A stretch of 48,458 nucleotides of DNA from an uncultured Comamonas sp. (GTDB taxonomy: Bacteria > Pseudomonadota > Gammaproteobacteria > Burkholderiales > Burkholderiaceae_C): NCBI GenBank assembly GCA_902175065.1, contig CABIIJ010000001.1, forward strand, positions 1 through 48,458. Reading direction: 5' to 3'. The position numbers were made by a program, and so were the translations under genes. Each line of letters begins with the position of its first letter. Within the stretch, counting starts at the first letter, position 1. Below the pieces are notes generated by a model, which was not told the DNA's origin, did no database searches, and saw nothing but the letters and a program-made list of their open reading frames with translations. This document shows positions 4,502-35,453 of the stretch, piece by piece.

Positions 4502-4618
4502 GCAAAGCTATCCTTATAAAAGCATCTTGCGCTTACCATACAAAGATTTCAGGAATATTTCACCATAAATTCATTGCATAACAAGCGCAAGCAGCTATTT
4601 ATTCAGAAGCATTTAGGT

Positions 4619-5485: not shown

Positions 5486-5516
5486 CGTTGCAAACCTTTA
5501 ATGAACAAATGACGGC

Positions 5517-8269: not shown

Positions 8270-8271
8270 GT

Positions 8272-8745: not shown

Positions 8746-8764
8746 GCCAACCCCATTACCAGTG

Positions 8765-9925: not shown

Positions 9926-9935
9926 TTCAGGTTCC

Positions 9936-10853: not shown

Positions 10854-10893
10854 GACTCGATATGTGGTTACACCTAATAATTGTGGACTTGAT

Positions 10894-12531: not shown

Positions 12532-12538
12532 TTGGTGC

Positions 12539-13657: not shown

Positions 13658-13660
13658 TTT

Positions 13661-14464: not shown

Positions 14465-14475
14465 AAATCGGAAGT

Positions 14476-16170: not shown

Positions 16171-17177
16171 AGCATACTCCCTTGTTTTTCACACAGCGTG
16201 TGCAAATTATACCCGTATTTTTTCAAGAAATATTTTTCCAAATTCTTAGTGGATATATCATTTTTTCCACCTGAAGCACTGGAGTTGTGTGCTTTAAAAA
16301 GACTGACGTCTCGATATTCAGCCGAATAATCAACAACAGGAAAACTCTTATAATCTGACGTAGATGCCTCAGGATTCAAAATCACAGACTTCACACCATT
16401 CAGACCACAGTGCCATTTGATCCATAAATCATCCGCAGTGGGAGTCAATTCAAGCGCCGCGTTGATATCAACGAAATCCCGAGTAAAGAACTTGGTGGAA
16501 TACAAAATACCATCCTTGCCTGTTGGTAGATTGTTCATGGTCGCCACTGTCTTGCCGAGTTCCCAGTTACTGTACGGATTGATACCACTACTGTTGGCTG
16601 TAATGTAACGCCCCCGAAATGCAATGACACTATCATGTTCAAGGTATTTATCATACAACGTTTGGATAAAATAATCTGGATACAAGGTGTCATCATCCAC
16701 TGTAATGAATATTTTATCTTTCGTTTTATTTTCAGAAAAAAAACTCTCCATAAATGGAATAATTTTTCTAAAAGGACCCGTATTCTTTGTCCAGTTTATC
16801 TCCAACAAAGGCAGTTTGATAAAGCTAGCCAACCGCGGATCATCTTTTCTAATACCCTTATCCAGGAGATAGGCCTCCTCCGAAATATTCAAATATATTT
16901 TTTGAGGCCGCAGCGTCTGCTTGTGCAGCGACTCCAATACCGGCAACAACCGACTCAAACGGTCGCTTATCGTGGTAAGAGTAATAAAAATTTCAGGCGC
17001 TTCAAAATTTTTATTTATTCCTGATTTAAGAATATTTTTTTTGCACAACTCAATATTTGCTGTAAAAATACATTTTAAATCAGGGTGCTCTTGCCCTATC
17101 CGCTGGTAAGCAGCAAGCGCCTTTTCATACTCCCCCTCTTGAAAAAGGAGATTGGCTTCTTTAGTGGAGATAAACAT
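16167..17177 (-). CDS. Glycosyltransferase-like protein with N-terminal TPR-like segment
   Basis: A 336-residue protein. Residues 4-40 (EANLLFQEGEYEKALAAYQ) look like one tetratricopeptide-type repeat. From about residue 62 a GT-A-like fold follows (ITLTTISDRLSRLLPVLESL) with an acidic DDD motif at 161-163 (ITVDDDTLYPDYF), the probable metal site. The ATG lies only 5 bases from the ISL3 element, so the native upstream sequence has been replaced. The IS inverted repeat gives an AGGG that could serve as ribosome binding site. The frame is open for only three codons into the IS, so the N-terminus might originally have been longer. Confidence 0.7.
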   Translation of the reverse strand: MFISTKEANLLFQEGEYEKALAAYQRIGQEHPDLKCIFTANIELCKKNILKSGINKNFEAPEIFITLTTISDRLSRLLPVLESLHKQTLRPQKIYLNISEEAYLLDKGIRKDDPRLASFIKLPLLEINWTKNTGPFRKIIPFMESFFSENKTKDKIFITVDDDTLYPDYFIQTLYDKYLEHDSVIAFRGRYITANSSGINPYSNWELGKTVATMNNLPTGKDGILYSTKFFTRDFVDINAALELTPTADDLWIKWHCGLNGVKSVILNPEASTSDYKSFPVVDYSAEYRDVSLFKAHNSSASGGKNDISTKNLEKYFLKKYGYNLHTLCEKQGSML

Positions 17178-17182
17178 AAAAT

Positions 17183-18547: not shown

Positions 18548-18563
18548 AATGTGATGCCGAATA

Positions 18564-20462
18564 TCACGACAAGCCAACTTCCACATCCCATTGATGATTA
18601 ACCATAAAGTCACAGGCCTTCTTAATCATAAGAAAATCCTTTCCTGTTTTTTTAAATTCTGGTATATTTGAATAATAACTATCAGGGCCTATTTTGTATA
18701 GAAGATCATAATTTTGCTCGGCTAGAAATTTTTGTAAAATTGAAACATCACATTTATGTCCAGTCTCAATCTGCAAAATTAAATTATTTTCTTTAATTAA
18801 TTTAACCCCACCTTTGATAACATCCAGTTCATGACCTTCAACATCTATTTTCATCACAATATTTTTTTTTGAAAAAGTAAATAAATTATCTAATGTATCA
18901 GTTTTAACCGTAATTTTTTCTTTAATCGAATCTTGCTCATGAAACGACGTATCAAGTACTCCATTTTTTCCGGAGCAATCGCCAAAATCTGAAAATTCAG
19001 TTTGTCCAATTTTTGAGGATAAGGCCAAATTTCGCGCATCAACGTCACCAGCATTTTTATTTTTTTGAAGATTTTGAACTAAATTAATATAAGTTTCCGG
19101 TGTTGGTTCAAATGCAATGCAGTGAAGGTTTGGAAAATATTTTTGTGCAATGAGCGTATAAAATCCAACATTTGCCCCCACATCAATCACAACAGATGGT
19201 TTGATCAATGATATGAATTGCAAAAACAAGGAAACCTGCAATTCTTCAATCTTCAAGAAGAATGGCCAACGCGCCTTGCTACGCTCTGTCAATATTAATC
19301 CGCGTATCAGTCTATTGTTTTCGAGTTCTTTTGCATGTTTTTCCAGGCGGTATAGCAAAGTTTTCTTTTCTTTATTTTGCTGCTCTTGATTTTTAAGAAG
19401 CTCTGCATTTTTTTTCTGCTCTAACATCAGCTGAACATTTGATTCCATTTGTGATTTAAGTTCAAATTTCCTGATTTCATCAGCCTGAATTTTTTTCAAT
19501 TTCTCAATCTGGAGCAGATGCTCTTTCGCCTGCTTATCCACGGCCACCTTGGCCTGGGTCAGTTGCTCCGTCTGGCTCAGACGTTCCTGTGCCAGCCTGC
19601 TCTGCTCCTCAAGCGCTTGGCTCATTTGCTCCAGTTGCTGAGCCAGTTCCTGCAAGCGCTTTTCAGCAGCAGCTTTAGTCTGGGTCAATTGCCTGACCTG
19701 AGCCTGAAGCTCCTGCAACAATTTCGCCTGTTCTTCGCCATTGAGACCCAGCCTTCTGCACTCGCTGCGATGCACATGCAATGCCGTCCGTGCATCTCGC
19801 ACAAACAATGCATACCCAATGCCCGGATGGCGATTGGCTTCGACCGCAATCTGCACCATGCCTTTTTGTTGAAGAAACTCTGCCACCTCTTCAAGATTCG
19901 TGCCATCTGGCATTGCGTGCATTTCGCCCAACAAGACTCTTGCAATGACTACATCCACCAGATTCAGCTTGCTGGAGGCTCGCAACAGAACACCTGCGGG
20001 CAGGCAGTCAATGACCAGCCAATGTCCTTCATCCACTGGCTGATCGACGTCTTCGCTCAGGTCGCTAAGTAGGGTGTCCAAAGTAATGGCACTCAGCTCT
20101 CTGACCTCTTGCGTTTGCAGGTTCGGCCAAAGACTCAAAAGCAATCGTGGCTCCAGCAGACCACTTTCCTGCTGACTGTTGGCCACAAAAAAGGACGCCG
20201 TGCCCTGTTGAGCAGCAACCACGGTATTGCGTATTTCGCAATGTTGAGCACGCTCGCCCAATAAGTTCAAGGTGCGCTGTAAGATCGAATATTGCAGAGG
20301 CTCCGCCTCTATAAACGTCACTCTGGACTCAGTCTGATGCGCCAACCATTGCGCCCAGGTTCCTTTGCCGTTACCTGCCCCTACCAGGGAAATATGCTTG
20401 GGAGGCATTAGTATTTTCAAATACTCCAGCCAGGATATGATGGTACTCATTGGGCTACTCAT
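18564..20462 (-). CDS. Two-headed FkbM methyltransferase-like protein with central coiled coil
   Basis: A 632-residue protein with three parts. Residues 20-230 are a divergent Rossmann methyltransferase-like domain (HISLVGAGNGKGTW at 23-36 for SAM; WLVIDCLP at 148-155). Residues 240-385 are a long, Gln/Glu/Leu-rich coiled coil. Residues 400-620 are a typical FkbM domain (VVIDVGANVGFYTL at 424-437; KIDVEGHELDVIKGG from 538). The N-terminal half is much richer in GC than the C-terminal half, so the gene looks like a mosaic. By analogy with WbdD, where a coiled coil spaces a chain-capping domain from the membrane, it may help set or end chain length; this is inference. An A9 tract (T9 at 18862-18870) lies in the second domain. 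The IS begins 17 bases after the stop. Confidence 0.7.
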   Translation of the reverse strand: MSSPMSTIISWLEYLKILMPPKHISLVGAGNGKGTWAQWLAHQTESRVTFIEAEPLQYSILQRTLNLLGERAQHCEIRNTVVAAQQGTASFFVANSQQESGLLEPRLLLSLWPNLQTQEVRELSAITLDTLLSDLSEDVDQPVDEGHWLVIDCLPAGVLLRASSKLNLVDVVIARVLLGEMHAMPDGTNLEEVAEFLQQKGMVQIAVEANRHPGIGYALFVRDARTALHVHRSECRRLGLNGEEQAKLLQELQAQVRQLTQTKAAAEKRLQELAQQLEQMSQALEEQSRLAQERLSQTEQLTQAKVAVDKQAKEHLLQIEKLKKIQADEIRKFELKSQMESNVQLMLEQKKNAELLKNQEQQNKEKKTLLYRLEKHAKELENNRLIRGLILTERSKARWPFFLKIEELQVSLFLQFISLIKPSVVIDVGANVGFYTLIAQKYFPNLHCIAFEPTPETYINLVQNLQKNKNAGDVDARNLALSSKIGQTEFSDFGDCSGKNGVLDTSFHEQDSIKEKITVKTDTLDNLFTFSKKNIVMKIDVEGHELDVIKGGVKLIKENNLILQIETGHKCDVSILQKFLAEQNYDLLYKIGPDSYYSNIPEFKKTGKDFLMIKKACDFMVNHQWDVEVGLS

Positions 20463-22206: not shown

Positions 22207-23964
22207 TTACAGGCCAAAAACGACTTTTGCGCTCACCGCGATCTGGTACATGATTTGCGTCATATCTTTCCAGAACTGGCGCTTTTTCTTATCCACTTTA
22301 GGCAGTACCAAGATCTGATCGCCTGCCTGAATGCCGGTACTTCCAAATACCCGGTTGGCTTTGACTTGCTCGAAAGAGCCATCACGTCGGGCTACGACCA
22401 CGCGGGCATTGTCTGCCATTTGGGTGAAACCGCCTGCGCGTTCGATGTAGTCGCCCAAGCTCAAGTTACCCTCAAAGGCAACGGCGTTGGGAAAAAGCAC
22501 TTCACCACTGACCAACACGAGGTCGTCCTTGCGGGGGATGCGAATGATGTCGCCGTTTTCCAGCAACATGCTATTGAGCCGACTGGCTTTGGCAATTTGC
22601 ACTTGCCCCAGAGGTTCGACTTTTTTAGCTCGTTCGATCCATTGCAGGGAGAGGTCAGCTTCTTCTTTACGCAGCCGAGCCTCATCGCTGCTGCCACTAC
22701 GAGCCGTAAGCAGGCTCATTTCCAGATTGTGCAAACTGGTGGCAAGCATTTCCTTTTGGCGCTGTTTGACGCTTTCTCGGTAGAGTTGCACGCTGGCCAT
22801 ATCGGCATCCTGGCGCGACTGGATTTGCTCCAGCAGGGTACCCATGGCCGTGCCGTAGGGCAGAACATATTCCTGGGCGCTGTCGTGCTCACCCTCCACG
22901 CGCACAGTGATGGTGCCCGGCTTCTTATCGGCGGTAAATTGCAATTCATCGCCATCCACAAGCTGAACGGTAGCGGCATCGCTCAAGGGGTAATACTCTG
23001 CATTGCGCACACTACCGGTATTGCGCACGACTCGCACATGGGTGGCATCGGGCAAAGGTTTGGCAAGCCGCATTAGTTGGGCAACAGTCTGCCCTTGGCC
23101 CTGGAACTCAAAACGCTTGGCGTTGGCAACCAACCCTCCAACTTTGACGCGCTCCGCATGAGGGGGGACAAAAATGACGTCGCCATCGGCCAATTGCACC
23201 ATGGGCATGGTGCCGTTGAGGAGGAAGTCGTACAGGCTGATGGTGGCCCGGACAGCCTGGCCGCGCTTGACCTGCACTTGCAGGTAACTGCCGCGCTCAG
23301 GATCAACGCCACCGGCCATGTCCAGATAGCGCAGGATGCTATCCATGCTGGTGCCGTTGTAGAGGCCGGGACGGTTCACATTGCCACCGACAAACACACG
23401 CACAGGTTGGGCAGCGGCAAGGCTGGCATAGCTGCTGACGTTGTTACGGAAAGTACGCCGCACAGCGGCCTGCACGACACCTTCCAGATCCTGATTGCGC
23501 ACACCCAGCACCTGAACGGGGCCAGCGTGGGGCAAAAAGATGTTGCCGCGAGGGTCAACCGTCAATACCTGATCAAAGGTAAATGCCCCCCACAGGCGTA
23601 CCTGGATTTGATCACCCAGGGTCACGGCGTAGTCCGGATTGAACTGAGTTGCTCCCGGCTGGCTGAAAGCACCGGTAAAGAGCTGGGCGCCAAAAACGTC
23701 GCTAGCCTGGTTGGTCAGGTGGTCCTGGGTCAGAAGCGGGTTGTCCTGACTTTTTACTTGCGCAGGATTGGCCGCCGGGGGGGCAGGCTGCTTGGCAGCC
23801 ATATCTGCCCCGGGCACCTGGGGCATGTTTTGTGCAGCAAAGGGATTGCTGGCGGTGTTTTGCTGCAAAACACCAGAGAGTCCAAGATCAACCTGTGCCC
23901 ACGCCAGGGGCGACAACCCAAGGGCCAGAGTTACAGCGGCAAGGATGGATGGTGTGTGTTTCAT
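22207..23964 (-). CDS. kpsD: Capsule polysaccharide export protein, outer-membrane/periplasmic (OPX family)
   Basis: A 585-residue OPX-family protein expected to carry the capsule from the inner-membrane complex to the surface. A cleavable signal peptide (hydrophobic core then AWA before Gln 24) is present and there is no lipobox, as in KpsD. The polysaccharide-export domain is seen at DYAVTLGDQIQVRLWG and DPRGNIFLPHAGPVQVLG, followed by SLBB-type domains (VRVFVGGNVNRPGLYNG; VLVSGEVLFPNAVAF). I chose the ATG at 23964 because GGA lies six bases upstream; other in-frame starts at 23970 and 24027 exist. It lies 16 bases after kpsE. The C-terminal region is hydrophobic. Confidence 0.9.
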   Translation of the reverse strand: MKHTPSILAAVTLALGLSPLAWAQVDLGLSGVLQQNTASNPFAAQNMPQVPGADMAAKQPAPPAANPAQVKSQDNPLLTQDHLTNQASDVFGAQLFTGAFSQPGATQFNPDYAVTLGDQIQVRLWGAFTFDQVLTVDPRGNIFLPHAGPVQVLGVRNQDLEGVVQAAVRRTFRNNVSSYASLAAAQPVRVFVGGNVNRPGLYNGTSMDSILRYLDMAGGVDPERGSYLQVQVKRGQAVRATISLYDFLLNGTMPMVQLADGDVIFVPPHAERVKVGGLVANAKRFEFQGQGQTVAQLMRLAKPLPDATHVRVVRNTGSVRNAEYYPLSDAATVQLVDGDELQFTADKKPGTITVRVEGEHDSAQEYVLPYGTAMGTLLEQIQSRQDADMASVQLYRESVKQRQKEMLATSLHNLEMSLLTARSGSSDEARLRKEEADLSLQWIERAKKVEPLGQVQIAKASRLNSMLLENGDIIRIPRKDDLVLVSGEVLFPNAVAFEGNLSLGDYIERAGGFTQMADNARVVVARRDGSFEQVKANRVFGSTGIQAGDQILVLPKVDKKKRQFWKDMTQIMYQIAVSAKVVFGL

Positions 23965-23980
23965 ACGCATTCCGGGTTTC

Positions 23981-25108
23981 TTAATCTTGGTGGTCACGCA
24001 CGATGGCCAGTAGCAGGTGCAGGACACCGGCCAGCAGCAGAATGGTCAGCACCCAAACGCTGGTGGTGTACAAGCGCCGGGGTTCCAGCGCGTCTTGCGG
24101 CAAGTTAGGCTGTTGCAATACCGAAAGTTTTTTCAGTGTGCGGGTAGCTTCCAGGCGACCTTGCTCCAGCGCTGTCAGCGCCGTTTTATACATATCCAGA
24201 TCAAACTTGGCTTGCAGTTCCAACTGGGCAAAGGCTTCTGCCGTGCGGTTGAGGGTTTTACCGCCAGGGGCGGCTAGCTTGGCTTGCTCCTGGGCAATTT
24301 GCTTTTCGATGGCATCAATACGCTGTTCCAGCAGCACGATATTGGGATGATCGGCCACCAAGTAGGCTTGCATGGCGCTGCGCTGGGCTTGCAGGTCAGC
24401 CAGTTGGCCTTGCAGATTGGCAACAATGGAAGCCAGCACCTGGGCTGCAGCCTCCGGAGAGATCAACCCCTTCTTCTCCTGAAACTCCAGCATGGTGCGG
24501 CGTGATTTCTGCACCTGGTCATAGAGTTTGCTGACCTGCCCTTCCAGAAAATTGACCTGATCCTGGGCAATGGCGTGGGCAGTACGGTTCATGAAGGCTT
24601 CGCCTTCTTGCACCAAGGCCTGGGCAATGCGCTGGGCTTGCTCGGCTTCATATGCCTGGGCCTTCAAAACCAATACGCCAGCAAATTCATCGTACTCCAC
24701 CTGCACGCGACGCAGGTAGTACTCATGAAACTCCTCGCGCGTTGCATCCGTACCGCCCCACATCCGCGAAAGCCAGTCACCCTGGCTGCCAAAGTGTTCA
24801 CGCAGGTGCAAACTAGCATCCAGTTTTTCTGCCATATCGGGGGAACGCAGATATTCGCGCAGCAGCAATTGGTCGGCACGGTTGGGGCCGGTGCTGCCGC
24901 CGGAAATCAAACTACCCAAATCAAAATTGGCGCTGGCATGGAGATTGGTGTTCTGGACAATAACACGCGACTCCGAAACGTAGCGATCGGAGGCAATCAG
25001 CAGCCAATATGCGCTACAAAGCAGGCACAACGCCGTTGCCAAACAGCGTAAGCGCGAACTGCACAGCCAGCGCAGGCTGCACTGCATGAAAGTAAGAGTT
25101 TCAGTCAT
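23981..25108 (-). CDS. kpsE: Capsule export inner-membrane protein (PCP-3 family)
   Basis: A 375-residue protein of the KpsE/BexC/CtrB type that bridges the ABC transporter and the OPX channel across the periplasm. It has an N-terminal membrane helix (about 18-38), a long periplasmic alpha-helical region with coiled-coil character (residues about 150-330), and a C-terminal membrane helix (VWVLTILLLAGVLHLLLAIV), the standard PCP layout. The ATG overlaps the kpsT stop (ATGA), so the two are translationally coupled. The order kpsM-kpsT-kpsE-kpsD matches ABC-dependent capsule loci. Confidence 0.9.
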   Translation of the reverse strand: MTETLTFMQCSLRWLCSSRLRCLATALCLLCSAYWLLIASDRYVSESRVIVQNTNLHASANFDLGSLISGGSTGPNRADQLLLREYLRSPDMAEKLDASLHLREHFGSQGDWLSRMWGGTDATREEFHEYYLRRVQVEYDEFAGVLVLKAQAYEAEQAQRIAQALVQEGEAFMNRTAHAIAQDQVNFLEGQVSKLYDQVQKSRRTMLEFQEKKGLISPEAAAQVLASIVANLQGQLADLQAQRSAMQAYLVADHPNIVLLEQRIDAIEKQIAQEQAKLAAPGGKTLNRTAEAFAQLELQAKFDLDMYKTALTALEQGRLEATRTLKKLSVLQQPNLPQDALEPRRLYTTSVWVLTILLLAGVLHLLLAIVRDHQD

Positions 25109-25782
25109 GATTTATCAATATCGGAAGTACTGTCGTGGTAGGCCTTGATGGCATCGTCAATTTGGTCAAACCATTGGGCTGTACCATCACGCAGAAAAAT
25201 ACCAGCCTGACAAAAATCCTTAAGGGTATTTTCGCTATGAGACACCATAATAACGCTGGATTTACCAACCATATCCTTGAATGCCTTTTTGGCTTTTGTC
25301 TGAAAAACACGGTCACCCGTAGCCGTTACCTCATCAGAAATATACACGTCGAAGTCAAAAGCCAAGGATAAGCCAAACTGCAAACGCGACTTCATTCCGG
25401 ATGAATAGGTTTTTACCGGCTCATTAAAAGCCGGGCCTATTTCAGAAAATGCTTCCACCTGCTCGACAATACGGTGAAGGTCATGCTCCATGCCATGAAT
25501 ACGTGCAACAAACTTGGTGTTTTGCCGCCCGGTGAGGCTCCCTTGCAGACCACCGCCAAAACCCATGGGCCAGGATACCTTGCAGTGGCGGCGCACCATT
25601 CCTTTATTGGGATAGTCCACCCCACCAATGATGCGTAATAGCGTAGATTTACCGGCACCATTACCACCAACCAAGCCAACACTGCACCCGGCAGGAATGG
25701 TCAAGTTAACACCACGCAAAATCCACGGCCCCATGCCGTGGTCGGTGTAGTATCGTTTATGAATGTCTAGGACTTCAATCAT
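25105..25782 (-). CDS. kpsT: Capsule ABC transporter, ATP-binding subunit
   Basis: The ATPase that powers capsule export, 225 residues. Walker A GGNGAGKST (39-47), the signature YSSGMKSR (126-133, the form typical of KpsT/Wzt) and Walker B VYISDE (146-151) are intact. It lacks the C-terminal carbohydrate-binding domain of O-antigen Wzt proteins, which places it with capsule transporters that do not recognise a terminal sugar. It begins 4 bases after kpsM and overlaps kpsE by 4 bases. Confidence 0.95.
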   Translation of the reverse strand: MIEVLDIHKRYYTDHGMGPWILRGVNLTIPAGCSVGLVGGNGAGKSTLLRIIGGVDYPNKGMVRRHCKVSWPMGFGGGLQGSLTGRQNTKFVARIHGMEHDLHRIVEQVEAFSEIGPAFNEPVKTYSSGMKSRLQFGLSLAFDFDVYISDEVTATGDRVFQTKAKKAFKDMVGKSSVIMVSHSENTLKDFCQAGIFLRDGTAQWFDQIDDAIKAYHDSTSDIDKS

Positions 25783-25786
25783 TGCA

Positions 25787-26581
25787 TCAATCCATCACCA
25801 GTCGTTGATTGAACTTCCGCAACAAAGCCAAACCAATAAAAACCAAAACCAAGGCCGCCTGATAAACAAACAGCAAATCGACCCCCGGCACCGAATGGTA
25901 ATAAGGGGAGAATGCAATACGCGCGGCTTCAATAGCATGGGCTAACGGATTGAGCAACAACAGGCTTAAATACGGCTCCTGGATGGCTGAAAGCGGAAAA
26001 ATAACACCGGAAATCATCATCAATGGCATCATGATGAAACCAATAATACGCCCTGCCTCTGGCACCAGTTTTACCAACACCGCAAACACCAATCCCAGCC
26101 CCAGCGCACACAGCCAAACTGCGATAAAGGCTTCCAGCACCCCCCAGGCATTGACGGGCCAAGCCATCCAGCCAATAAAAGCACCGGCCAGGAGTACCGC
26201 CGTACTGATGAGAAGCATCAGAAAGCCTTCCACCAACGCCCGTACCAAGGCAACATCCCCAGGGCGTACTTGTCGATACGCAAAAAGAGATTTATTCGCA
26301 CTAATACCATTCTGCACTTGGGTCAAGGTACGCCGGAAAGTTAAGAAGACCAACATACCGATTGCAATCCACAAGGGAGTCTCAATACCTCCCACATGCC
26401 GCACACGGACAATAGTAAAAATCGCCACCAACCACATTACATTGATCAGCGGCTCCACAATCAACCACATCCAGGCCATGCGCGAACCGAACATACGCGT
26501 TCCGGCCTCACGTAAAAAAAGCGCCTTCCATACAGCACTTGTCAGTTTCAGGGACTTTTGAAATGCGGCGGAGTTCTGCAT
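25787..26581 (-). CDS. kpsM: Capsule ABC transporter, permease subunit
   Basis: The membrane subunit of the capsule exporter, about 264 residues and about six predicted membrane segments in the ABC-2 type fold. Typical features are the N-terminal amphipathic FLREAGTRMFGSRMAWMW and the hydrophobic segments around VMWLVAIFTIV, FLMLLISTAVLLAGAFIGW and FIMMPLMMISGVIFPLSAI. I chose the ATG at 26581; an in-frame TTG at 26602 lies inside the preceding gene. It begins 5 bases after the alpha-oxoamine synthase, showing that lipid-type chemistry and export are in one transcript. Confidence 0.93.
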   Translation of the reverse strand: MQNSAAFQKSLKLTSAVWKALFLREAGTRMFGSRMAWMWLIVEPLINVMWLVAIFTIVRVRHVGGIETPLWIAIGMLVFLTFRRTLTQVQNGISANKSLFAYRQVRPGDVALVRALVEGFLMLLISTAVLLAGAFIGWMAWPVNAWGVLEAFIAVWLCALGLGLVFAVLVKLVPEAGRIIGFIMMPLMMISGVIFPLSAIQEPYLSLLLLNPLAHAIEAARIAFSPYYHSVPGVDLLFVYQAALVLVFIGLALLRKFNQRLVMD

Positions 26582-26586
26582 ATTTC

Positions 26587-27885
26587 TTACAGGCTGCGGC
26601 AAATGGCAGCCACCGTAGTATCGATATGCGCCGGTGTATGCTGATTGCTCAAGAAAAAACGCAGCCGCGCTGCTTTTTCTTCCACTGCCGGGTGAATAAT
26701 GGGCTGCACGTTGATGCCTTCCTTGAATAGCGCATTGGATAATTTGGCGGCCTTCAAAGAGCTGCCCACAATGACCGGCACAATGGAAAATCCCTGCGAA
26801 AGCCCAATATTCAACCCCGCTTTTTTCGCTTCACTCAAAAAATACTGGGTAATCTGGCGCAGCTGATGCACCCGCTGGGGTTCCTGGCGCAGTATTTCCA
26901 GGCACTTCAATGCAGCAGCGGCCAGCGCTGGTGCCAAACCGACGCTGTAGACAAAGCCAGGGGCAGCGTATTTCAGGTGCTCGACCAGGGCACGCTGACC
27001 TGCGATGTAGCCGCCGCAGCCGGACATGGTTTTGCTGAGGGTGCCCATCCAGATGTCCACATCGGTTCCCGGTACGCCATAGTGCTCATGCAGACCGGTA
27101 CCCGTTGCGCCCAGCACGCCCAGGCTGTGGGCTTCGTCCACCATCAGGAAGGCTTGGTGACGACGCTTGATGTCAATCAACGTGGGCAGGTCCGGGATGT
27201 CGCCATCCATGCTGTAGTGGCCTTCGACGACGATCAGCACGCGCTCGAACTGGCCCCGGATTTCAGTCAGTATCTGGTCAAGCTGGGCCGCATCGTTGTG
27301 CGCAAACGAGCGCCGCGCAGCCCCGGAAAGCTTGATGCCTTCGATGATGCTGTTGTGCGCCAAGGCGTCGTGCAGCACCAGATCCCTGGGGCCGAACAGG
27401 TAGCCGATGGTGCTGACGTTGGTGGCGTGGCCGCTGACGAAGACCACGCAATCCTCCACGCCGTACACCTGAGCCAGGGCGCGTTCCAGATCGCGCTGAA
27501 CCGGGCGCTCGCCCGCCACCAATCTGCTGGCAGATACCGTGGTGCCATAGCGGTCTATGGCGTCTTTGGCCGCCTGATTGACGCGGGCATCCCCATTCAG
27601 GCCGAGATAGTTGTAGCTGGAGAAGTTGATGAACTCCCGGCCATCGATCTGCGTAGTGGCACCAGCCAAGCCGTCATGACTGACAAAAAACGGATTCGCC
27701 AGACCAAAACGCTCTGCCGCTGCCTTGGGCACCAGCATTTTTTCGTAGCCGGGAAAACGGTCGAAGCGGGTGAAATCTTTGGAAACCTTGCTGACAACCG
27801 GGACAGGCAATGCCGAAGCGGCGCCCTGCGCTGCTTCGGCTTTTTTCCCAAGGATGCGGTCAATCAGCTTTGCTTTTTGTGTCAT
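26587..27885 (-). CDS. Alpha-oxoamine synthase (PLP-dependent acyltransferase, RkpG-like)
   Basis: A 432-residue enzyme of the family that includes 8-amino-7-oxononanoate synthase, serine palmitoyltransferase and 2-amino-3-ketobutyrate CoA ligase. These join an acyl thioester to an amino acid with loss of CO2. Visible are NFSSYNYLGL (87-96), the substrate-site SGHATN, VDEAHSLG (249-256), and the PLP lysine in GTLSKTMSGCGGY (Lys 285). It has an N-terminal extension of about 60 residues compared with BioF. Its start overlaps the PKS stop (ATGA), so the acyl donor is probably the PKS acyl carrier domain. The rhizobial RkpG is a similar capsule-linked protein. A role in biotin synthesis is unlikely given the context. 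Confidence 0.85.
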   Translation of the reverse strand: MTQKAKLIDRILGKKAEAAQGAASALPVPVVSKVSKDFTRFDRFPGYEKMLVPKAAAERFGLANPFFVSHDGLAGATTQIDGREFINFSSYNYLGLNGDARVNQAAKDAIDRYGTTVSASRLVAGERPVQRDLERALAQVYGVEDCVVFVSGHATNVSTIGYLFGPRDLVLHDALAHNSIIEGIKLSGAARRSFAHNDAAQLDQILTEIRGQFERVLIVVEGHYSMDGDIPDLPTLIDIKRRHQAFLMVDEAHSLGVLGATGTGLHEHYGVPGTDVDIWMGTLSKTMSGCGGYIAGQRALVEHLKYAAPGFVYSVGLAPALAAAALKCLEILRQEPQRVHQLRQITQYFLSEAKKAGLNIGLSQGFSIVPVIVGSSLKAAKLSNALFKEGINVQPIIHPAVEEKAARLRFFLSNQHTPAHIDTTVAAICRSL

Positions 27886-30800
27886 GAGGTGAATCGGGTT
27901 CCTGTCTCGGCCAACTTGGCTGCATCACGGGCAAGCTCGGCAATTTCCTGCTCAGTCAAATCGGCGGCGTGCTGGGCAACCACCGTACCCACCATAGCCG
28001 AAGGGGCTGAATTATCGCTGACGCCTTGGGCCGTATCACTGCCCAGCAACTTGTCGGCAATTTTTGCGCTGACCTTGTACACGCTGGGGCTGTCGCCCAG
28101 CATCATCACTGGCAGTTGGATGCCGAAGCGCTGCTCCAGTCCCAGGGCCAGCTCCACCGCCATGAGCGAATCCATGCCCATGTCATGGAGGCTGGCGCGG
28201 GGGGTGATGCGCTCCGGCGCAATGCACAGGATTTGCGCCACTTGCTGGGCCACCAGCTCTTCGATCATGGCCGTGGCTTCGGCGGCAGTTTTGCCTTCCA
28301 ACAGGCTGCGGATGTCCAGACCATCCTGTCCAGCATTGGCATCCTGGTAACGCCAGTTCAACTGCCCGAAGCGCGAGCCTTTGGCCGCCGATGGCAACAG
28401 CCGCGCCAGCACCGGCCAATCGAAATTGGCAGGAATGACGTGCAAGGCATCCTCGGCCCAGATGTTTTGCAGCTGATCCAATGCCAGCTCTGCCGCCAGG
28501 GGGGCTTTGCCCAGACGCTGGGCCAGAGCATCCTTCACCGCCTCGTTGCGGGTAAGGTAGCCCGCATCGGCAATCGGCCCCCAGCCGATGCAGGTGGCAG
28601 GCAGGCCCAGGCTGCGACGCTGGGCCGCCAGGCCTTCCAGCCCCATATTGGCCGCCACGTAGTTGGCCTGACCGGGGTTGCCGATGGCCGTCGTGACCGA
28701 GGAATACAGCACGAAGTGCGTCAGCGGCTGGCCCAGAGTGGCCTCGTGCAGATTCCACGCGCCGACCAGTTTTGTGCGCAGCACGGCATCCATGCTGGCG
28801 GCATCCAGATTCAGCAGCAGCCGGTCGTCGAACTGCGCTGCGGCATGCAGCACCCCGGCCAGGGGCGGCATGGATTGGGCAATGTTGGCCACCAGCGCTT
28901 GCACAGCCCCCGGCTGGGTGATGTCGCAGGCCAGCGCCAGGGCTTGCACGCCCTGGCTGGCAAATTCTTCCAGCAGCGCGGCTGCGCCAGGAGTGTCTGC
29001 CCCGCGACGCCCGACCAGGGCCAGATGGCGCACGCCATGCTGTACCAGCCAGCGGGCCGACGCTAAGCCAAAGCCGGACAGGCCGCCCGTCACCAGCCAG
29101 GTGGCCTTGCCATCCAGTTGTATCGCCTGTGCCGCCGTGGGCTGCTGGACTGGCGGCTTGGCATTGGCCAACGTGACGACGATCTTGCCGATGTGGCGGG
29201 CCTGCTGCATCAGGCGGAAGGCATCCACGACCTGATCGGCGGCAAAGCTGCGGTAGGGCAAGGGGGCCAGCACTCCCTCGCGAAACAGTGCAATGACTTC
29301 GCCAAACAGGCGGGCCGCCAGTTGTGGCCGCCCCGTGAGCAGCTGGTCGGCATCGATGCCGAAATAGCTGATGTTGTCCTTGAACGGACGCAGGCCCACC
29401 GGGGTGTTTTCGAAAAAGTCGCGCTTGCCCAGCTCCAGAAAGCGGCCAAAGGGCTTGAGCACGTCCAGGCTGCGGCGCATGGCCTCGCCGGCCAGGGAGT
29501 TGAGCACGACGTCCACGCCCTCGCCATCGGTCAGTTGCAGAACGTCTTCGGCAAACTCCAGGCTGCGCGAGTCGAGCACATGGTCGGCACCCAGCAGTTG
29601 CACGAAGGTGCGCTTTTCGTCCGTGCCTGCAGTGGCAAAAATTTCCGCGCCCAAATGGCGGGCCAGCTGGATGGCAGCGATCCCCACGCCCCCGGCAGCA
29701 CCGTGGATCAGCACGCGCTCGCCCGGCTGCACGTCGGCCAGTTGCTTCAGGGCGTAATACACCGTCAGGAACACCGTGGGCACCGTGGCCGCCGCTTCGA
29801 ATGCCCAGCCTTGCGGCATGGGGGCCACGGCATCGGCACGGGTAACGATATGGCTGGCAAAGCACGAAGAGCCAAAGCCCATGACGGCATCGCCGACCTG
29901 CAAGTGCGTGACGCTGCTGCCGACACGGCTGACGACACCTGCAAACTCCAGCCCCAGGCTGGCCCCGGCGAAGCCTTTTTCCACGGCCTCATCGGGCAGC
30001 AGGCCCATGAGATACATCACGTCGCGGAAGTTCAGGCCGGTGGCCTGGGTGCGCACCTCGATTTCATGCGCCTGCAACGGCGCGGATTCCTGCGGCAGCC
30101 ACAGCAGGTTGCGCAACTGGCCGGGCACCAGGAAGTCCAGCTTGAAGCGTGCGCCCTCCTCCCCTGTTTCATCACCCTGCAGGCCTGTGGCCGCAGCCGG
30201 TTCATGCTCCTGCAGCATCGGAACGTGGCGGACACCTTCGGTCAGCAGAATTTCATTCTGGCCGTCGGGCTGCAGCAACTCGCGCTCCAGCTGCGCCAGC
30301 AAGCTGGCCTGCGAAGCGACGGCATCCAGATCAATCAAGGTACAGGTCAGTTGCGGGCATTCATTCATGACCACACGCCCCAAGCCCCACAACGCCGATT
30401 GAGCCGGGCTGCGCAAGCCTTGACAGGTAATGATCCACAGGCGTGGCGGTGTCTCCTGCTGCTGCACGGTCTGCACCAGTTCAAGCAGGCGGGTGACGGT
30501 GGCAATACTGTCTTCAGGGCTGTCCTGCCAGCCTTGCATCCAGACTATGTGGTGCACCACCGGAGCAGCAGCGTCATCCAGCAATACGTGCTGCCCCTGG
30601 GCCTGCAAGCGCTGTTGCAAATCCTGGGCCGCAGCCGCTGTGCCCTGATCTGCCAGCAGTTGCCAGGTCTGGGCGGTCACAGGCTCTGCCACCGGCACAT
30701 CGGCAGTTTGAACAGGGGCTTGCGCCAGAAGCAGATAAGCGCCTTCGTGCAATTGCTGCGCGGCAGGCTCCTCGATCAGCGCCGCATCCAGCCAGCCGCC

Positions 30801-33800
30801 CGCTGCCAGTGATTGCAGCCATGCGGCTGGCGCCAACAGGCTGGAAGTAGCCTGGCCCTGGCTGTTTTGCTGCCACCAGGCGCTATCCAGCCCCTGGATC
30901 AGATTGACGCTCCAATCCGGATAGCGTTCAGCGATTGCCAGAATTGCCCCAGGGACCAATTTGGCTTGTAGTTTTGCAAGGACAGCTTCGGGGTTGAACA
31001 TGCGGTGCAGGCTGTGCTGCACGATGACCACATCAAACTGCGCGGGCAGGCTGCGCTCGGCGGTCAGCGCCCCATCAGTGGCGGCATAGTGGGCCACGAG
31101 GATGGGGGCATCCTCCTCGTATTCCGCCGCCTGGCGTGTTGCCAAGTCTTCGCTGGTCAAGGCCAGCACGTAATCCAGACGGTCGGCAGGCAAGGCATGG
31201 AGGGCCGTTTTTGGCAATTCGCTCAAACCGGCAGAAATCTCCAGCACCCGCAGGCGCTGCCCTTGCGGCAAAGCAGTTGCCAGGCGTTGCAGCAAAGCCT
31301 GCAACAGGCTGCGCGTGCCCAGATAGGCCGGGTCGGTGTGGTAGAGCGATTCGGCAATGGGCGAGCGCTGCAATTGGGCGTGCAGCAGTTGGCGGGCATC
31401 CGGTTCGGTCAGCAATGCCGGCAAGGCAGCCCCCGCCGTGCCCAGCAGGGACAGTTGGGGCAGGCACGCCGGGGCATCACGCAGCAGGGCTTGCCACAAC
31501 TCCTGGGCGGGGGGCAGGTCAGCCTCCGCGACCAGGGCCGTGCCATCCAGCAAATCCTGGCTGCGCAGCAAATCCAGCAGCCATTGGCCATACGGCGTCT
31601 GCGCCAGGGTGGCTTGCCAGTCGGCAGGCTGGCGTTGCTGCAATTGCCGACAGGCTTCAAATGCGAAGGAAAGGGACAAGGCTTCCAGCAGGGGCAGCGT
31701 CTCGGTAAACCAGCGCTGCCGTTCCTCGGAACTGTTGCCGTCGACCAGATGCGCGGCCAGATCGGCGACGCTGACAATGGGCCGGGCCGTGGCTGCAGGA
31801 TGCGGCTGCAGCCAGGGGGCGATATGCCATTGCTGGATGGCAGCATCCTCCCCATGCTTCAGGTACGCAGCACGGAAGCGGCAGCCCTGGGCGCTGGCAA
31901 CCAGTTGGCCCTGAACGTCGAACAACTCGAAATCTGCCAGCGCCGAGCGCGTGCCGAAGCGGCGCAAATGGGCACGGAAGGTCACCACCGGCGCACTGCT
32001 GCGCACGTCGAGCTTGCCGATCTTGACCGGCAACAGGGCAATGCCACGCCCGTTGGCAATGGGTTCGGCAAAGAAATCCACCAGCGCCTGAAAGCACAGG
32101 TCGAGGACAGCAGGATGCAGCACATAAGCGGCCAGATGCACACTCGCATCCAACGCCAGTCGTGCCTGCAGGCAACGGCTGGCCGCATCGACCGCAACGC
32201 AGTCGATGCCTTGGAAAACCGGGCCATAGTCCAGCCCCAGGATCTTGGCGAGCTGGTAGTGCCGGGTGTGCTCGACCAGCTCCTGCGCTGCTGCAGAGGC
32301 AGCGGGGATCGAAACCAGTGGAATACGTGCCTGGGGGGCTTGCTGGGTGGCCTGGAGCAGACGGCCTGCGGCGTGCAGGGACCAGGCATCGCTGGACAAG
32401 CGCTGGCGGCTGAAAATCTGAAAGCTGCCATCACGCGGCTGCACCACCAGACGCAGGCTGCGGGCGTGTTCGCCATCGAACACCAGCGGAGAGAGGATGT
32501 CCAGCTCCTGCAGGGCGCATGGCCCGCTGCCCAGCCATTGGCGGGCCGCTGCCAAAGCCATTTCGGCGTACGCGGCCCCCGGAAAGACGATGGCACCACC
32601 CACCTGGTGATCGGGCAGCCAGGGCAGGATGGTGGGATCGAGCACGTTTTCCCAGGTCAATACGGCATCGGGGATGGCCCAGCCCAGCAACGGATGCACA
32701 CGGCGGCGCTGCAGGGCCTGCAGGCTCTCGACCGTGGTGGGCTGCCAGTGGCGTTCGCGCTGCCAGGGATAGTTGGGCAAACGGATACGCTGCCCAGGGC
32801 AGGGAAAATGGGCTTTCAGCACTTGGACATCTGCAAGCAAAATCGCCTTCAAACCCGCATCCTGCAAGCGCTGAAAGCTATCATCGTTGCGTTGCAGGGT
32901 GGGGAGCACACGGCCTGTGGCCTGCACCGCATCCAGGCTTTCCTTGACGTAGCGCTGCAAGATGGCGTGGGGACTGATTTCCACAAAAATACGGCAGCCC
33001 TGGGCGGCGGCCTGGGCCACGGCATCGGCAAAGCGCACCGGCTGGCGCACGTTCAGCCACCAGTAATCGGCACCCAGTTCGGTACCGGCCAGCGCAGCTC
33101 CCGTCACGGTGGAAATGAATTGCGCCTGGGTGGCCGCGGTCGGCGCCAGCCCTTGCAAGCGCCGGGCCAGATCGTCCCGGGCGCCTTCCATGTAGTGGCT
33201 GTGGAAAGCGTAGTCCAGATCGAGCAGACGGAAAAACACCTTTTGCGGCGCCAGCAGCGCCTCCAGACGCTGCAAGTCTTGCAGGCTGCCGGACAAGGTG
33301 ACGTTGGCCGGGCTGTTGATGCCGGCAATTTCAATATCGGCAGCAATCCCCCCCTCTGCGCCCAGCCGGGCGATGGCTTCCTGCGCAGCGGCTGCCGACA
33401 TGCCCACGGCGGCCATGCGGCCCTGGCCACGGGTCAGGTTCTGCGCCTGGCTGCGGGCGCAGATCACGGCGATGGCCTGTTCCAGGCTCAAGGCCCCGCA
33501 CGCCCAGGCGGCGGCAATTTCACCGACGCTGTGGCCCAGAACGGCGGCGGGCTGCACGCCCTGCTCCTGCAACAGCCGGGTAATGGCCACCTGCATGGCA
33601 AACAGCAGGGGCTGGGCCACGGCGGTGTCCTGCAACTGTGAACAGGCCGCATCGGCCTGCAACTGCTCCAGCAGGGAAAAGCCCGCCTGGGGGCGCATGG
33701 CCACATCCAGCTCCTGCACGATGCTGGCAAAGCGCGGGCTGGTCGCCAGCAAGGTTTGCCCCATGCCGACCCACTGGGCGCCGTTGCCGGCATAAACGAA

Positions 33801-35453
33801 GGCAATGTTGCCACTGGAGGCCAGGGCTTCTTCCTGCACCAGAGCCGGCAGGGCGCCGACTTCCTCGCCCTGGGCAAAGCGTTGCAGCGTCTCTATGGCC
33901 TCCGCCACACTGGCAGGCGCAAGCAGCAGGCACTGGGACAGGTGTTCTCGCCCAAACAGCGCCGCATGGGCAACGTCGTAGTAGCGCTGCGGATGATTCT
34001 GGAACAACTGCGCATAACTCCGGGCCAGGGCACGCAAGGCAGGCAGCGAGCGGGCGGAAATCCGCAGCGGCGCCAGCGCCCCCTCCGGGGCTGGCGGGGC
34101 GGCAACCGCACCAGCCTGTGGCAGGTACTGCTCCAGAAGCACATGGGCATTGGCGCCGCCAAAACCAAACGAATTCACCCCGGCAGCCAGGGGCTTGCCG
34201 GGGGATGTCTGCAGGGGATGCTGGTCAAACACCAGTTGCAGATTCAGTCCGGCAAAGTCGATGTTGGGGTTGGGGGTTTGCAGGTGCAGCGTGGGCGGCA
34301 GGGACTGGTTTTTCAGCGCCAGCACGGCCTTGACGAAGCCCGCCATGCCGGAAGCCGGTTCCATATGGCCCAGATTGGCCTTGACCGAACTGATCGGCAG
34401 CGGCTGGCTGCGCCCCTGCCCATAGACGGCGCCGATGGCAGCGGCCTCGATCGGATCGCCAACGGGGGTGCCTGTGCCGTGGGCTTCGATGAAGTCCACA
34501 TCGCTTGCCGCCAGCCCGCTTTTGGCCAGCACTTCGCGCATCAGTTCCACCTGCCCATCGCGGCTGGGAATGGTGATGCCGGTCTTGCGTGAGCCGTCGG
34601 CATTCACCCCGGTGGCGCGAATGACGGCATGGATTTCATCGCCATCGGCCTGCGCCTGCGCCAGGGGTTTGAGCAACAGCACGGCACCGCCTTCGGAGCG
34701 CACATAGCCGTTGCCGGCAGTGTCGAAGGGCTTGCAGCGCCCATCGGCGGACAGCATGGATGCCTTGGTGAACCCGACGAAGGGATAAGGGTGCAGCAAC
34801 AGGTTGACGCCGCCAACCAGGGCCGTCGAGGCCTCGCCTGTACGCAAACTGTTGCAGGCATGGTGCAGGGCCACCAAAGAAGACGAGCAGGCGGTATCCA
34901 CGGCCAGAGACGGGCCATGCAGATCCAATACATAGGAGATACGGTTGGCGGCCACGCTCAGGGTATTGCCCGTCATGGTGTGGGCCGAAAGGCTGGCCAG
35001 ATCGTCCAGGGCGCGGGTGCCGTAATCCAAGCCGGAGATGCCGACATACACCGAGCAATTGGTTCCCGCCAACCGGGACGCGGGCACGCCGGCGTTCTCC
35101 AGCGCCTCCCAGGCCAGTTCCAGCAGCAGGCGCTGCTGAGGGTCAAGCCAGGCGGCTTCGCGCGGGGAGATACCGAAAAAGCCCGCATCGAATTCTTCGA
35201 TGCGCGAGAGCACGCCCGCAGAATAGGTGACGCTGCGCCCGGCCTCGGAACGCCTGCCATGCTGCAGCTCTTGCGTCGCCCAGCGCCCGGACGGCACCTG
35301 GGTGATCAAGTCCTGCCGGTTTTGCAGTGCAGTCCAAAACTCCTGTTCCTCGCTATGGTCGCCAGGAAAGCGAAACGCCATGCCGATCACGGCAATGGGA
35401 GCAGAATTTTCAGTCAGGCAATTATTTTTCGGGGCAGGAGGGAAATCGGTCAC
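27882..35453 (-). CDS. Highly reducing type I polyketide synthase (RkpA-like), 2523 residues
   Basis: A single-module, probably iterative PKS. Order: ketosynthase (15-445; Cys 189 in VDTACSSS, His 325 in EAHGTGTP, His 363 in KANLGH); acyltransferase (550-850; GHSVG Ser 642, YAFHS malonyl-type motif); dehydratase (918-1205; His 949, Asp 1118 in HPAVLDLCFQ); a degenerate methyltransferase-like region (1395-1560; VLEISAGLS); a non-catalytic KR-like region; enoyl reductase (1775-2095; HGAAGGVG 1917-1924); ketoreductase (2116-2330; GGLSGFG, Ser 2251, Tyr 2265); acyl carrier (2395-2470; GMDSL, Ser 2429). No thioesterase is visible. All reductive domains look intact, so a saturated fatty-acid-like chain is expected. 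The GTG at 35453 is my start choice; no strong ribosome binding site is seen, and a longer frame runs into fdxA. It leads the capsule locus. Confidence 0.9.
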   Translation of the reverse strand: MTDFPPAPKNNCLTENSAPIAVIGMAFRFPGDHSEEQEFWTALQNRQDLITQVPSGRWATQELQHGRRSEAGRSVTYSAGVLSRIEEFDAGFFGISPREAAWLDPQQRLLLELAWEALENAGVPASRLAGTNCSVYVGISGLDYGTRALDDLASLSAHTMTGNTLSVAANRISYVLDLHGPSLAVDTACSSSLVALHHACNSLRTGEASTALVGGVNLLLHPYPFVGFTKASMLSADGRCKPFDTAGNGYVRSEGGAVLLLKPLAQAQADGDEIHAVIRATGVNADGSRKTGITIPSRDGQVELMREVLAKSGLAASDVDFIEAHGTGTPVGDPIEAAAIGAVYGQGRSQPLPISSVKANLGHMEPASGMAGFVKAVLALKNQSLPPTLHLQTPNPNIDFAGLNLQLVFDQHPLQTSPGKPLAAGVNSFGFGGANAHVLLEQYLPQAGAVAAPPAPEGALAPLRISARSLPALRALARSYAQLFQNHPQRYYDVAHAALFGREHLSQCLLLAPASVAEAIETLQRFAQGEEVGALPALVQEEALASSGNIAFVYAGNGAQWVGMGQTLLATSPRFASIVQELDVAMRPQAGFSLLEQLQADAACSQLQDTAVAQPLLFAMQVAITRLLQEQGVQPAAVLGHSVGEIAAAWACGALSLEQAIAVICARSQAQNLTRGQGRMAAVGMSAAAAQEAIARLGAEGGIAADIEIAGINSPANVTLSGSLQDLQRLEALLAPQKVFFRLLDLDYAFHSHYMEGARDDLARRLQGLAPTAATQAQFISTVTGAALAGTELGADYWWLNVRQPVRFADAVAQAAAQGCRIFVEISPHAILQRYVKESLDAVQATGRVLPTLQRNDDSFQRLQDAGLKAILLADVQVLKAHFPCPGQRIRLPNYPWQRERHWQPTTVESLQALQRRRVHPLLGWAIPDAVLTWENVLDPTILPWLPDHQVGGAIVFPGAAYAEMALAAARQWLGSGPCALQELDILSPLVFDGEHARSLRLVVQPRDGSFQIFSRQRLSSDAWSLHAAGRLLQATQQAPQARIPLVSIPAASAAAQELVEHTRHYQLAKILGLDYGPVFQGIDCVAVDAASRCLQARLALDASVHLAAYVLHPAVLDLCFQALVDFFAEPIANGRGIALLPVKIGKLDVRSSAPVVTFRAHLRRFGTRSALADFELFDVQGQLVASAQGCRFRAAYLKHGEDAAIQQWHIAPWLQPHPAATARPIVSVADLAAHLVDGNSSEERQRWFTETLPLLEALSLSFAFEACRQLQQRQPADWQATLAQTPYGQWLLDLLRSQDLLDGTALVAEADLPPAQELWQALLRDAPACLPQLSLLGTAGAALPALLTEPDARQLLHAQLQRSPIAESLYHTDPAYLGTRSLLQALLQRLATALPQGQRLRVLEISAGLSELPKTALHALPADRLDYVLALTSEDLATRQAAEYEEDAPILVAHYAATDGALTAERSLPAQFDVVIVQHSLHRMFNPEAVLAKLQAKLVPGAILAIAERYPDWSVNLIQGLDSAWWQQNSQGQATSSLLAPAAWLQSLAAGGWLDAALIEEPAAQQLHEGAYLLLAQAPVQTADVPVAEPVTAQTWQLLADQGTAAAAQDLQQRLQAQGQHVLLDDAAAPVVHHIVWMQGWQDSPEDSIATVTRLLELVQTVQQQETPPRLWIITCQGLRSPAQSALWGLGRVVMNECPQLTCTLIDLDAVASQASLLAQLERELLQPDGQNEILLTEGVRHVPMLQEHEPAAATGLQGDETGEEGARFKLDFLVPGQLRNLLWLPQESAPLQAHEIEVRTQATGLNFRDVMYLMGLLPDEAVEKGFAGASLGLEFAGVVSRVGSSVTHLQVGDAVMGFGSSCFASHIVTRADAVAPMPQGWAFEAAATVPTVFLTVYYALKQLADVQPGERVLIHGAAGGVGIAAIQLARHLGAEIFATAGTDEKRTFVQLLGADHVLDSRSLEFAEDVLQLTDGEGVDVVLNSLAGEAMRRSLDVLKPFGRFLELGKRDFFENTPVGLRPFKDNISYFGIDADQLLTGRPQLAARLFGEVIALFREGVLAPLPYRSFAADQVVDAFRLMQQARHIGKIVVTLANAKPPVQQPTAAQAIQLDGKATWLVTGGLSGFGLASARWLVQHGVRHLALVGRRGADTPGAAALLEEFASQGVQALALACDITQPGAVQALVANIAQSMPPLAGVLHAAAQFDDRLLLNLDAASMDAVLRTKLVGAWNLHEATLGQPLTHFVLYSSVTTAIGNPGQANYVAANMGLEGLAAQRRSLGLPATCIGWGPIADAGYLTRNEAVKDALAQRLGKAPLAAELALDQLQNIWAEDALHVIPANFDWPVLARLLPSAAKGSRFGQLNWRYQDANAGQDGLDIRSLLEGKTAAEATAMIEELVAQQVAQILCIAPERITPRASLHDMGMDSLMAVELALGLEQRFGIQLPVMMLGDSPSVYKVSAKIADKLLGSDTAQGVSDNSAPSAMVGTVVAQHAADLTEQEIAELARDAAKLAETGTRFTS

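Follow-up and report, generated by a model that had tools for sequence, protein, structure and literature searches.

A polyketide synthase and alpha-oxoamine synthase pair in a Comamonas capsule locus as the candidate entry to a capsule-dedicated sphingolipid pathway

Described systems and the Comamonas locus

Several described systems couple a one-module polyketide synthase (PKS) to an alpha-oxoamine synthase (AOS). Such a pair adjoins capsule export genes in the DNA considered here, a stretch of 48,458 nucleotides (below, the window) that is contig C1 of the 3.23 Mb genome of an uncultured Comamonas sp. (assembly GCA_902175065.1, contig CABIIJ010000001.1, positions 1 to 48,458). The pair belongs to a widespread and known family, which includes RkpA/RkpG of rhizobia, WcbR/WcbT of Burkholderia and SgaA/SgaB of Pseudomonas, and its product is very probably a long-chain sphingolipid of an unusual kind. 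We further propose, with a probability of roughly 0.6, that the pair opens a sphingolipid pathway dedicated to the capsule, which its product would prime and anchor. The novelty lies in the joining of three separate literatures, together with evidence from the capsule linker enzyme KpsS; no publication linking the rkp/wcb capsule lipid, the Sga sphingolipids and KpsS was found in a search that did not extend to the earlier gene papers, so priority is not certain.

The chemistry of the pair has been reported from Pseudomonas fluorescens MYb115, which makes C24, C26 and C28 sphinganines that depend on the PKS gene sgaA and the AOS gene sgaB; SgaB is a serine palmitoyltransferase (SPT) with a near-exclusive preference for serine, and SgaC, a short-chain dehydrogenase/reductase (SDR), is proposed to reduce the ketone (PMC12134224, 2025). 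The strain also has compounds 154 Da heavier, proposed by mass to be phosphoglycerol sphingolipids. Its passages on these lipids mention bacterial ceramide synthase and reductase and name no enzyme for the phosphoglycerol group; the terms capsul, polysaccharide, kps, lipoteichoic, LTA (lipoteichoic acid), wcb and rkp are all absent from the main text of that report. The Comamonas genome likewise has a one-module PKS followed by an AOS, plus an SDR, but the SDR lies in the same cluster in MYb115 and on another contig here. The published sgaA forward primer matches the PKS start at 22/22 bases in Pseudomonas putida 31753 (L097) and at 20/22 in locus L090, and the sgaA end primer matches at 19/23 and 21/23, respectively, with the AOS end primer matching poorly. 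The L097 AOS is 58% identical to that of the window, and downstream of it stand together KpsC, KpsS, an SDR and a phosphoglycerol-transferase-like gene (below, the transferase). An annotated Pseudomonas plasmid (L185) has SDR and LTA-synthase-like genes beside KpsS and KpsC in the same kind of order, and its locus-tag steps between PKS, AOS and SDR appear to equal those quoted for MYb115.

The rkp-1 genes of Sinorhizobium meliloti, described as chromosomal (PMC3557214), are described as making a lipophilic molecule that serves the K antigen as a specific lipid carrier or perhaps as its anchor (PMC3557214, PMC4881576), and rkp-1 mutants lack this antigen (PMC4881576). A record labelled plasmid pSymB (L184, CP090106.1) is 3.7 Mb long and carries rkp-1 genes, and is probably mislabelled. 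PKS, AOS, SDR, an unlisted open reading frame (ORF), a KpsS-like capsule biosynthesis gene and KpsF follow one another in the S. meliloti record; the unlisted ORF has a Sulfatase domain and is a homologue of the transferase. From the published order rkpABCDEFGHIJ we take the PKS, AOS, SDR, transferase and KpsS-like genes to be rkpA, G, H, I and J. All five have a counterpart in the Comamonas genome, with the AOS 57% identical, though they are contiguous in S. meliloti and on two contigs here, and RkpI aligns at just 32% over 275 aa. The rkpA/rkpG precedent invoked in an initial annotation of the window is thus correct, and widens to the genes that by order are rkpH and rkpI, an SDR and a phosphoglycerol-transferase-like protein.

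WcbR/RkpA are treated as a known PKS group (PMC3908369), and wcbPQRT of Cobetia are described as capsule lipid biosynthesis genes of little-known function (PMC11766843). The wcb clusters of Burkholderia and Cobetia resemble the present system in having an SDR, an LTA-synthase-like protein, a PKS and an AOS in a capsule cluster; they differ in gene order, and in five Burkholderia-type loci as well as L186 an LpxC-like gene separates the PKS from the AOS. In the fungal fumonisin pathway (FUM1/FUM8/FUM13) a PKS chain is also released by an AOS, which there uses alanine, and then meets a ketoreductase, but the product is a toxin and capsule genes are lacking. The group 2 capsule system of Escherichia coli shares the enzymes KpsS and KpsC of the 3-deoxy-D-manno-octulosonic acid (Kdo) linker and export by KpsMTED; its KpsS acts on (lyso-)phosphatidylglycerol (PMC7694667), the kps stretch of strain Nissle 1917 has no PKS-AOS pair, and the Nissle KpsS falls in another clade.

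The PKS of the window (27882..35453; 2523 aa; reverse strand, as is the AOS) is of the type I RkpA/WcbR/SgaA kind. Its domains, all above the Pfam cut-offs, are a ketosynthase (KS; 34281..35399, motifs DTACSSS, EAHGTGT and NLGHME), an acyltransferase (AT; 32844..33800, motifs GHSVGE and YAFHS, which we take to denote the malonyl type), a dehydratase (DH; 31869..32696, with HxxxGxxxxP and Asp), an enoylreductase (ER; 29175..30071), a ketoreductase (KR; 28569..29105) and an acyl carrier protein (ACP; 28065..28256, motif GMDSL). No thioesterase was among the 18 Pfam families reported. The catalytic residues (KS Cys/His/His, AT Ser/His, DH His/Asp, ER GGVG, KR Ser/Tyr, ACP Ser) are invariant in 62/62 full-length rows, namely the window and 61 relatives. 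Two methyltransferase models match below cut-off between DH and ER (30876..31307), where the S-adenosylmethionine motif I is degenerate in the window and not conserved across the 62 rows; the region is probably inactive, and active C-methylation was rejected on this ground. This architecture in one protein, with intact active sites and without a thioesterase, bears out the initial annotation, and so does the 4-base overlap of the PKS stop with the AOS ATG. Contig C14 of the genome has another large PKS region (L031 3600-19600), with frames of 3232 and 2101 aa and just distant similarity (31%) to the window PKS.

The AOS (26587..27885) is of the RkpG/WcbT/SgaB kind. Of the named alpha-oxoamine families reported, none has its curated cut-off reached by this protein, the scores being 350 of 426 bits for bioF and 300 of the 640 bits of the NCBIfam SPT equivalog, and a BioF, Kbl or CqsA enzyme was rejected on this ground; its best PDB match is an SPT. 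Lys285, His177, Asp250 and His253 are invariant in 26 aligned rows, and the amino acid substrate is not readable from the active-site residues. The genome has a second AOS match on contig C60, which by its N-terminal sequence we presume to be Kbl-like.

Partner genes and their co-inheritance with the pair

The SDR, transferase and KpsS expected of a capsule lipid system of the rkp-1/wcb kind are all present in the Comamonas genome. None of them lies in the window, nor does kpsC; the four are on contig C77 (coordinates of L039), with kpsC at 162-2237, kpsS at 4160-5383, the SDR ketoreductase at 5380-6147, overlapping the kpsS end, and the transferase at 6137-7711, in the order KpsS, SDR, transferase. 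An AAA-ATPase/PD-(D/E)XK gene is also predicted between kpsC and kpsS (2032-3837). In another genome (G157) a single contig carries both gene groups, that of the pair and that of its partners, at a distance of about 11 kb. Among solved structures the transferase, a 524-aa protein of the sulfatase superfamily, comes closest to GacH, a phosphoglycerol transferase, and LtaP, a lipoteichoic acid primase (E about 1e-10). Its residues E237, T279, D463 and H464 are invariant in 15/15 rows, and five membrane segments are predicted ahead of the catalytic domain. The sulfatase-superfamily domain, the Glu/Thr/Asp-His set and the N-terminal membrane helices place it among LtaP/GacH-like proteins, with a predicted phosphoglycerol transferase function.

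A profile of four AOS proteins retrieved at least 522 relatives from the genome collection, of which the best 80 loci were used. The C-terminal part of a PKS lies upstream of the AOS in all 80 (within 400 bases in 75; at about 1 kb, with one gene between, in the 5 of Burkholderia type), and the pairing is therefore not a matter of chance. In the stretches examined around these loci (4-21 kb), we counted the transferase in 27, the SDR in 23, KpsE in 27, KpsT in 22, KpsM in 21, KpsS in 13 and KpsC in 8. Any exporter or KpsC/S gene is present in 41/80, and these or an SDR or transferase in 61/80. Two layouts recur. In the first, that of the window, PKS and AOS are followed by the exporter, with or without manC between, and the SDR and transferase are farther away or on another contig, several times after KpsS as in the Comamonas genome; in the second, SDR and transferase precede PKS and AOS, or PKS-AOS converges on transferase-SDR-KpsS.

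Forty-eight of the 80 loci were passed to a survey of 47 genomes, which includes metagenome-assembled genomes, so that absences may be gaps. The transferase is present in 39 of these genomes (one copy with an internal stop, one partial) and KpsC/S in 39 (E 1e-10); 33 have both, 6 the transferase alone, 6 KpsC/S alone and 2 neither. Wherever the transferase locus was compared, it adjoins an SDR of 51-70% identity (30/30 genomes). Two further samples comprise 276 genomes of the class and 150 of the family, where pair-less denotes no AOS at E 1e-100 (class) or not being among the four close AOS above 580 bits (family); eight or nine family genomes with weaker AOS matches (34-41%), one of which (G056) has KpsC/S, were counted as pair-less. 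In the class sample the AOS is found in 8/276 genomes, and the transferase above 500 bits in 4, all within those 8, with distant relatives (218 and 247 bits) in two genomes without an AOS. Among its 13 genomes with KpsC/S (E 1e-20), the transferase is present in 3/3 with the AOS versus 0/10 without (Fisher test, 0.0035; 0.015 with the Comamonas genome removed). In the family sample all 4/150 genomes with a close AOS have KpsC/S, and 2/4 have the transferase, versus 0/14 of the KpsC/S genomes without a close AOS. Across both samples the transferase thus occurs in 4/6 KpsC/S genomes with the pair and 0/23 without it, which rules it out as a general companion of KpsC/S; its absence from 8/47 survey genomes and 2/4 family genomes likewise rules out that it is universal with the pair.

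AOS and transferase distances are correlated (r 0.80 in 31 genomes), also in the 15 genomes whose transferase is outside the 10 kb flank (r 0.81), several of these being 11-30 kb off on the same contig and so not shown to be genetically unlinked. In 11 genomes of the window's type, the AOS varies with the transferase, over 10 kb off or on another contig (r 0.70), but not with KpsT of its own locus (r 0.01), which indicates that the exporter is exchanged and the lipid genes are not.

Should the pair supply the lipid on which KpsS acts, KpsS would be expected to split by the pair, and for KpsC, which extends the Kdo, no such split is required. The KpsS tree has 29 pair-bearing rows (5 named loci, 18 of the 39 survey genomes with KpsC/S and 6/6 from the class and family samples) and 17 pair-less rows (18/23 genomes, five partial matches being left out, minus G422 with its shortened open frame). 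Rows were retrieved with two pair-bearing KpsS queries, the more similar KpsS being taken where a stretch had two. The two groups fall on two sides of one branch (99/89), a split seen in 100% of 200 bootstrap trees, as against an average of 14 changes for shuffled labels. In the same 36 genomes KpsS needs 1 label change (100/100). For KpsC the number is 7, of which at least 5 are forced, and no KpsC bootstrap tree needs 1 change. Shuffled KpsC labels need 12 changes, and this greater clustering of the real KpsC labels implies that the pair label is not independent of capsule history. A search for E. coli kpsS by DNA similarity gave only kdsB among the matches listed, and the Nissle 1917 record was used instead; its KpsS falls on the pair-less side (100/99) in a tree from which the long-branched G354 was excluded. 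A clade that coincides with the pair and excludes a known phosphatidylglycerol user is a candidate sphingolipid-using KpsS subfamily. The same contrast appears within the genus, where the Comamonas genome and its pair-less congener G128 share 75% identity over 467 residues in KpsC and 29% in KpsS. The G128 locus itself (L190 13199-17037) has a shortened KpsC frame and a KpsS of the other clade; no lipid gene occurs in the 35 kb read there.

A candidate pathway and its alternatives

In the pathway that we propose, the iterative PKS would assemble a very long, saturated acyl chain on its own ACP. The AOS would free this chain through a decarboxylative condensation in which the amino acid, to judge by homology, is L-serine, to give 3-ketosphinganine. 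Sphinganine products, serine use and the need for both genes have been demonstrated by others in the Pseudomonas homologue; the later steps we infer for this organism. The SDR beside kpsS on C77 would reduce 3-ketosphinganine to sphinganine, onto which the LtaP/GacH-like membrane enzyme would move glycerol phosphate from phosphatidylglycerol. The resulting sphinganine phosphoglycerol would resemble lyso-phosphatidylglycerol in having one chain, a phosphate and a glycerol. The dedicated KpsS subfamily would then add the first beta-Kdo and KpsC would extend the linker; the glycan would be built on it and exported by KpsMT-E-D, with the sphingolipid as its anchor. The initial annotation had envisaged an amino-ketone or sphingoid-like lipid that anchors or starts the capsule in place of the usual lipid. 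Experiments on the homologous SgaAB favour the sphingoid, an amino ketone being an unlikely end product where a reductase is present, and genome comparison supports a putative role of the lipid in the capsule. Replacement of the usual lipid holds by half: it would concern the lipid beneath the linker; the Kdo linker itself is expected to be retained because KpsC and KpsS are in the genome, and their presence rules out a lipid in place of Kdo.

We put at even odds the wider proposition that a whole branch of proteobacterial ABC-exported capsules has as its anchor very-long-chain sphingolipids of polyketide origin (sphinganine phosphoglycerol, or in some variants ceramide) rather than phosphatidylglycerol and is served by a specialised KpsS subfamily, that RkpI/WcbQ is the missing Sga headgroup enzyme, and that the rhizobial, Burkholderia and Pseudomonas lipids are of the same kind. 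Ever since rkp genes of a fatty-acid-synthase-like kind were reported in 1993, it has been asked which lipid carries the rhizobial K antigen. Joining the capsule and Sga work gives a definite structure to seek at the capsule end and predicts, testably, which KpsS enzymes accept which lipid; if it is true, sphingolipid-anchored surface polysaccharides may be common in bacteria not known as sphingolipid makers.

Several observations weigh against a capsule-dedicated pathway. The sphingolipid terminus on the capsule end is a proposal drawn from genome comparison. No single KpsS column separates the two groups at 90% each, and KpsS often adjoins the SDR and transferase, so part of the co-inheritance may be linkage; the co-variation of AOS and transferase could in part be vertical descent. 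Ten pair-bearing genomes gave no transferase with either the profile or an RkpI query. In the class sample just 4/8 genomes with a close AOS have it; in the other four, the gene next to the AOS encodes a different PKS (30-35%) or gives no match to a PKS. Conversely, the 6/47 pair-bearing genomes with a transferase but no KpsC/S at E 1e-10, Nitrosomonas europaea among them, would need another first sugar. The main doubt concerns the side of the membrane. LtaS-type active sites face the periplasm, so the transferase probably acts there while KpsS acts at the cytoplasmic face, and the lipid would have to flip back; E. coli is known to flip lysolipids inward (LplT). In MYb115 the lipids occur free, and they are treated as secondary metabolites that act on the host (PMC12134224); WcbQ has been viewed as decorating the glycan (PMC11766843).

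The free lipids of MYb115 lead to the alternative that survives best, although we regard it as unlikely: the PKS, AOS and SDR genes would make free membrane or secreted sphingolipids acting on hosts or membranes, the transferase would make free phosphoglycerol sphingolipids, and the capsule genes would be mere neighbours. Both free sphinganines and phosphoglycerol sphingolipids are reported from MYb115, where the host effect needs sgaA and sgaB (PMC12134224); AOS relatives occur outside capsule loci (L171, L175 and L176), and in 39 of the best 80 loci the stretch examined contains neither a capsule exporter nor a KpsC/S gene. Mere neighbourhood does not account well for exporter or KpsC/S genes in the other 41, for the loss of K antigen in rkp-1 mutants (PMC4881576), or for the single split of KpsS by the pair where KpsC shows none.

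It is rather improbable that the lipid anchors the capsule while the GacH/LtaP-like enzyme decorates the polysaccharide, instead of the lipid, with periplasmic glycerol phosphate. A periplasmic active site would suit such a role, and the capsule of Cobetia marina, whose genome has wcbPQRT, carries mannose 6-phosphate-glycerol, with WcbQ considered able to move glycerol onto the chain (PMC11766843). Against this stand the phosphoglycerol sphingolipids proposed in MYb115 (PMC12134224), the variation of the transferase, which follows that of the lipid genes rather than that of the exporter, its retention in S. meliloti, and the KR5 antigen of strain Rm41, described as glucuronic acid and a pseudoaminic acid derivative (PMC4881576). 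Finally, that the AOS uses alanine or glycine, or that no reductase acts, giving a deoxysphingoid or amino ketone, has a Fum8-type precedent and an AOS substrate that sequence leaves unread in its favour, but is highly improbable given the near-exclusive serine preference of SgaB (PMC12134224) and an SDR that is present in the Comamonas genome and adjoins every transferase compared.

Variant loci and neighbouring features

Two pair-bearing genomes without the transferase (G032 and G027) have KpsS beside an epimerase/3-beta-HSD family protein, followed by a PF13480 acyltransferase (L285 9520-13029 and L286 13457-16915); Pfam was run on the G032 copies, to which the G027 counterparts are 46% and 54% identical. 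The epimerase-type reductase and the acyltransferase resemble the ceramide reductase and synthase of Caulobacter, and these loci are a possible ceramide-anchored variant of the capsule. Their KpsS groups with those of G173, G195, G164 and S. meliloti in one subclade.

The capsule exporter follows the pair on the reverse strand, with KpsM, the ABC-2 permease, at 25787..26602, the ATPase KpsT at 25105..25782, a KpsE/BexC/CtrB family gene at 23981..25108 and a KpsD-like export protein (Poly_export, SLBB) at 22207..24027. The kpsM gene starts at or near the AOS end; its first open start, a putative one, is a TTG at 26602. Farther downstream, in the same direction and reaching the left end of the window, are glycan genes (1398..20462; glycosyltransferases, gmd, an epimerase, DegT, manC, a UDP-sugar dehydrogenase and pgi). 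They include an ISL3-family transposase gene (17217-18407), a 63% relative of which lies near the kpsC remnant of G128 (L190 10447-11721). Between glycan and export genes, 20518-22182 has a weak match, over residues 444-529, to the O-methyl phosphoramidate transferase family (39.6 bits; cut-off 600). The G+C content is 0.646 in the PKS, 0.650 in the right flank and 0.444 in the glycan genes at 10894-17177. The PKS starts with GTG, its frame staying open to a TTG 146 codons upstream. A TATAAT hexamer lies at 35488-35493, about 35 bases before this GTG; a promoter scan gave no site there, and promoter-like sites in the window were not more numerous than in shuffles.

Genes for GNAT proteins of about 190-230 aa adjoin the pair, the SDR or the transferase in several loci. 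The LpxC-like gene between PKS and AOS encodes a predicted deacetylase (L186, 14929-15843; also L076, L086, L088, L104 and L109), and a more distant LpxC-like gene (37%) adjoins the transferase in L089 and L166. In N. europaea (L178, G155) and Leeia (L180, G156), neither with a KpsC/S match at E 1e-10, three glycosyltransferase genes of the same kind and order precede the SDR and transferase. Outside capsule loci, an AOS relative is found with an MMPL gene in L176, and in L175 (6476-9820) an AMP-ligase, an ACP and an AOS of the RkpG/SgaB family are fused in one 1114-aa frame. L171 (3091-15100) has another PKS (30%) followed by an AOS (61%), an SDR (62%), a family-28-like glycosyltransferase and a fatty acid hydroxylase-glycosyltransferase fusion, and looks like a separate cluster for a hydroxylated glycosphingolipid.

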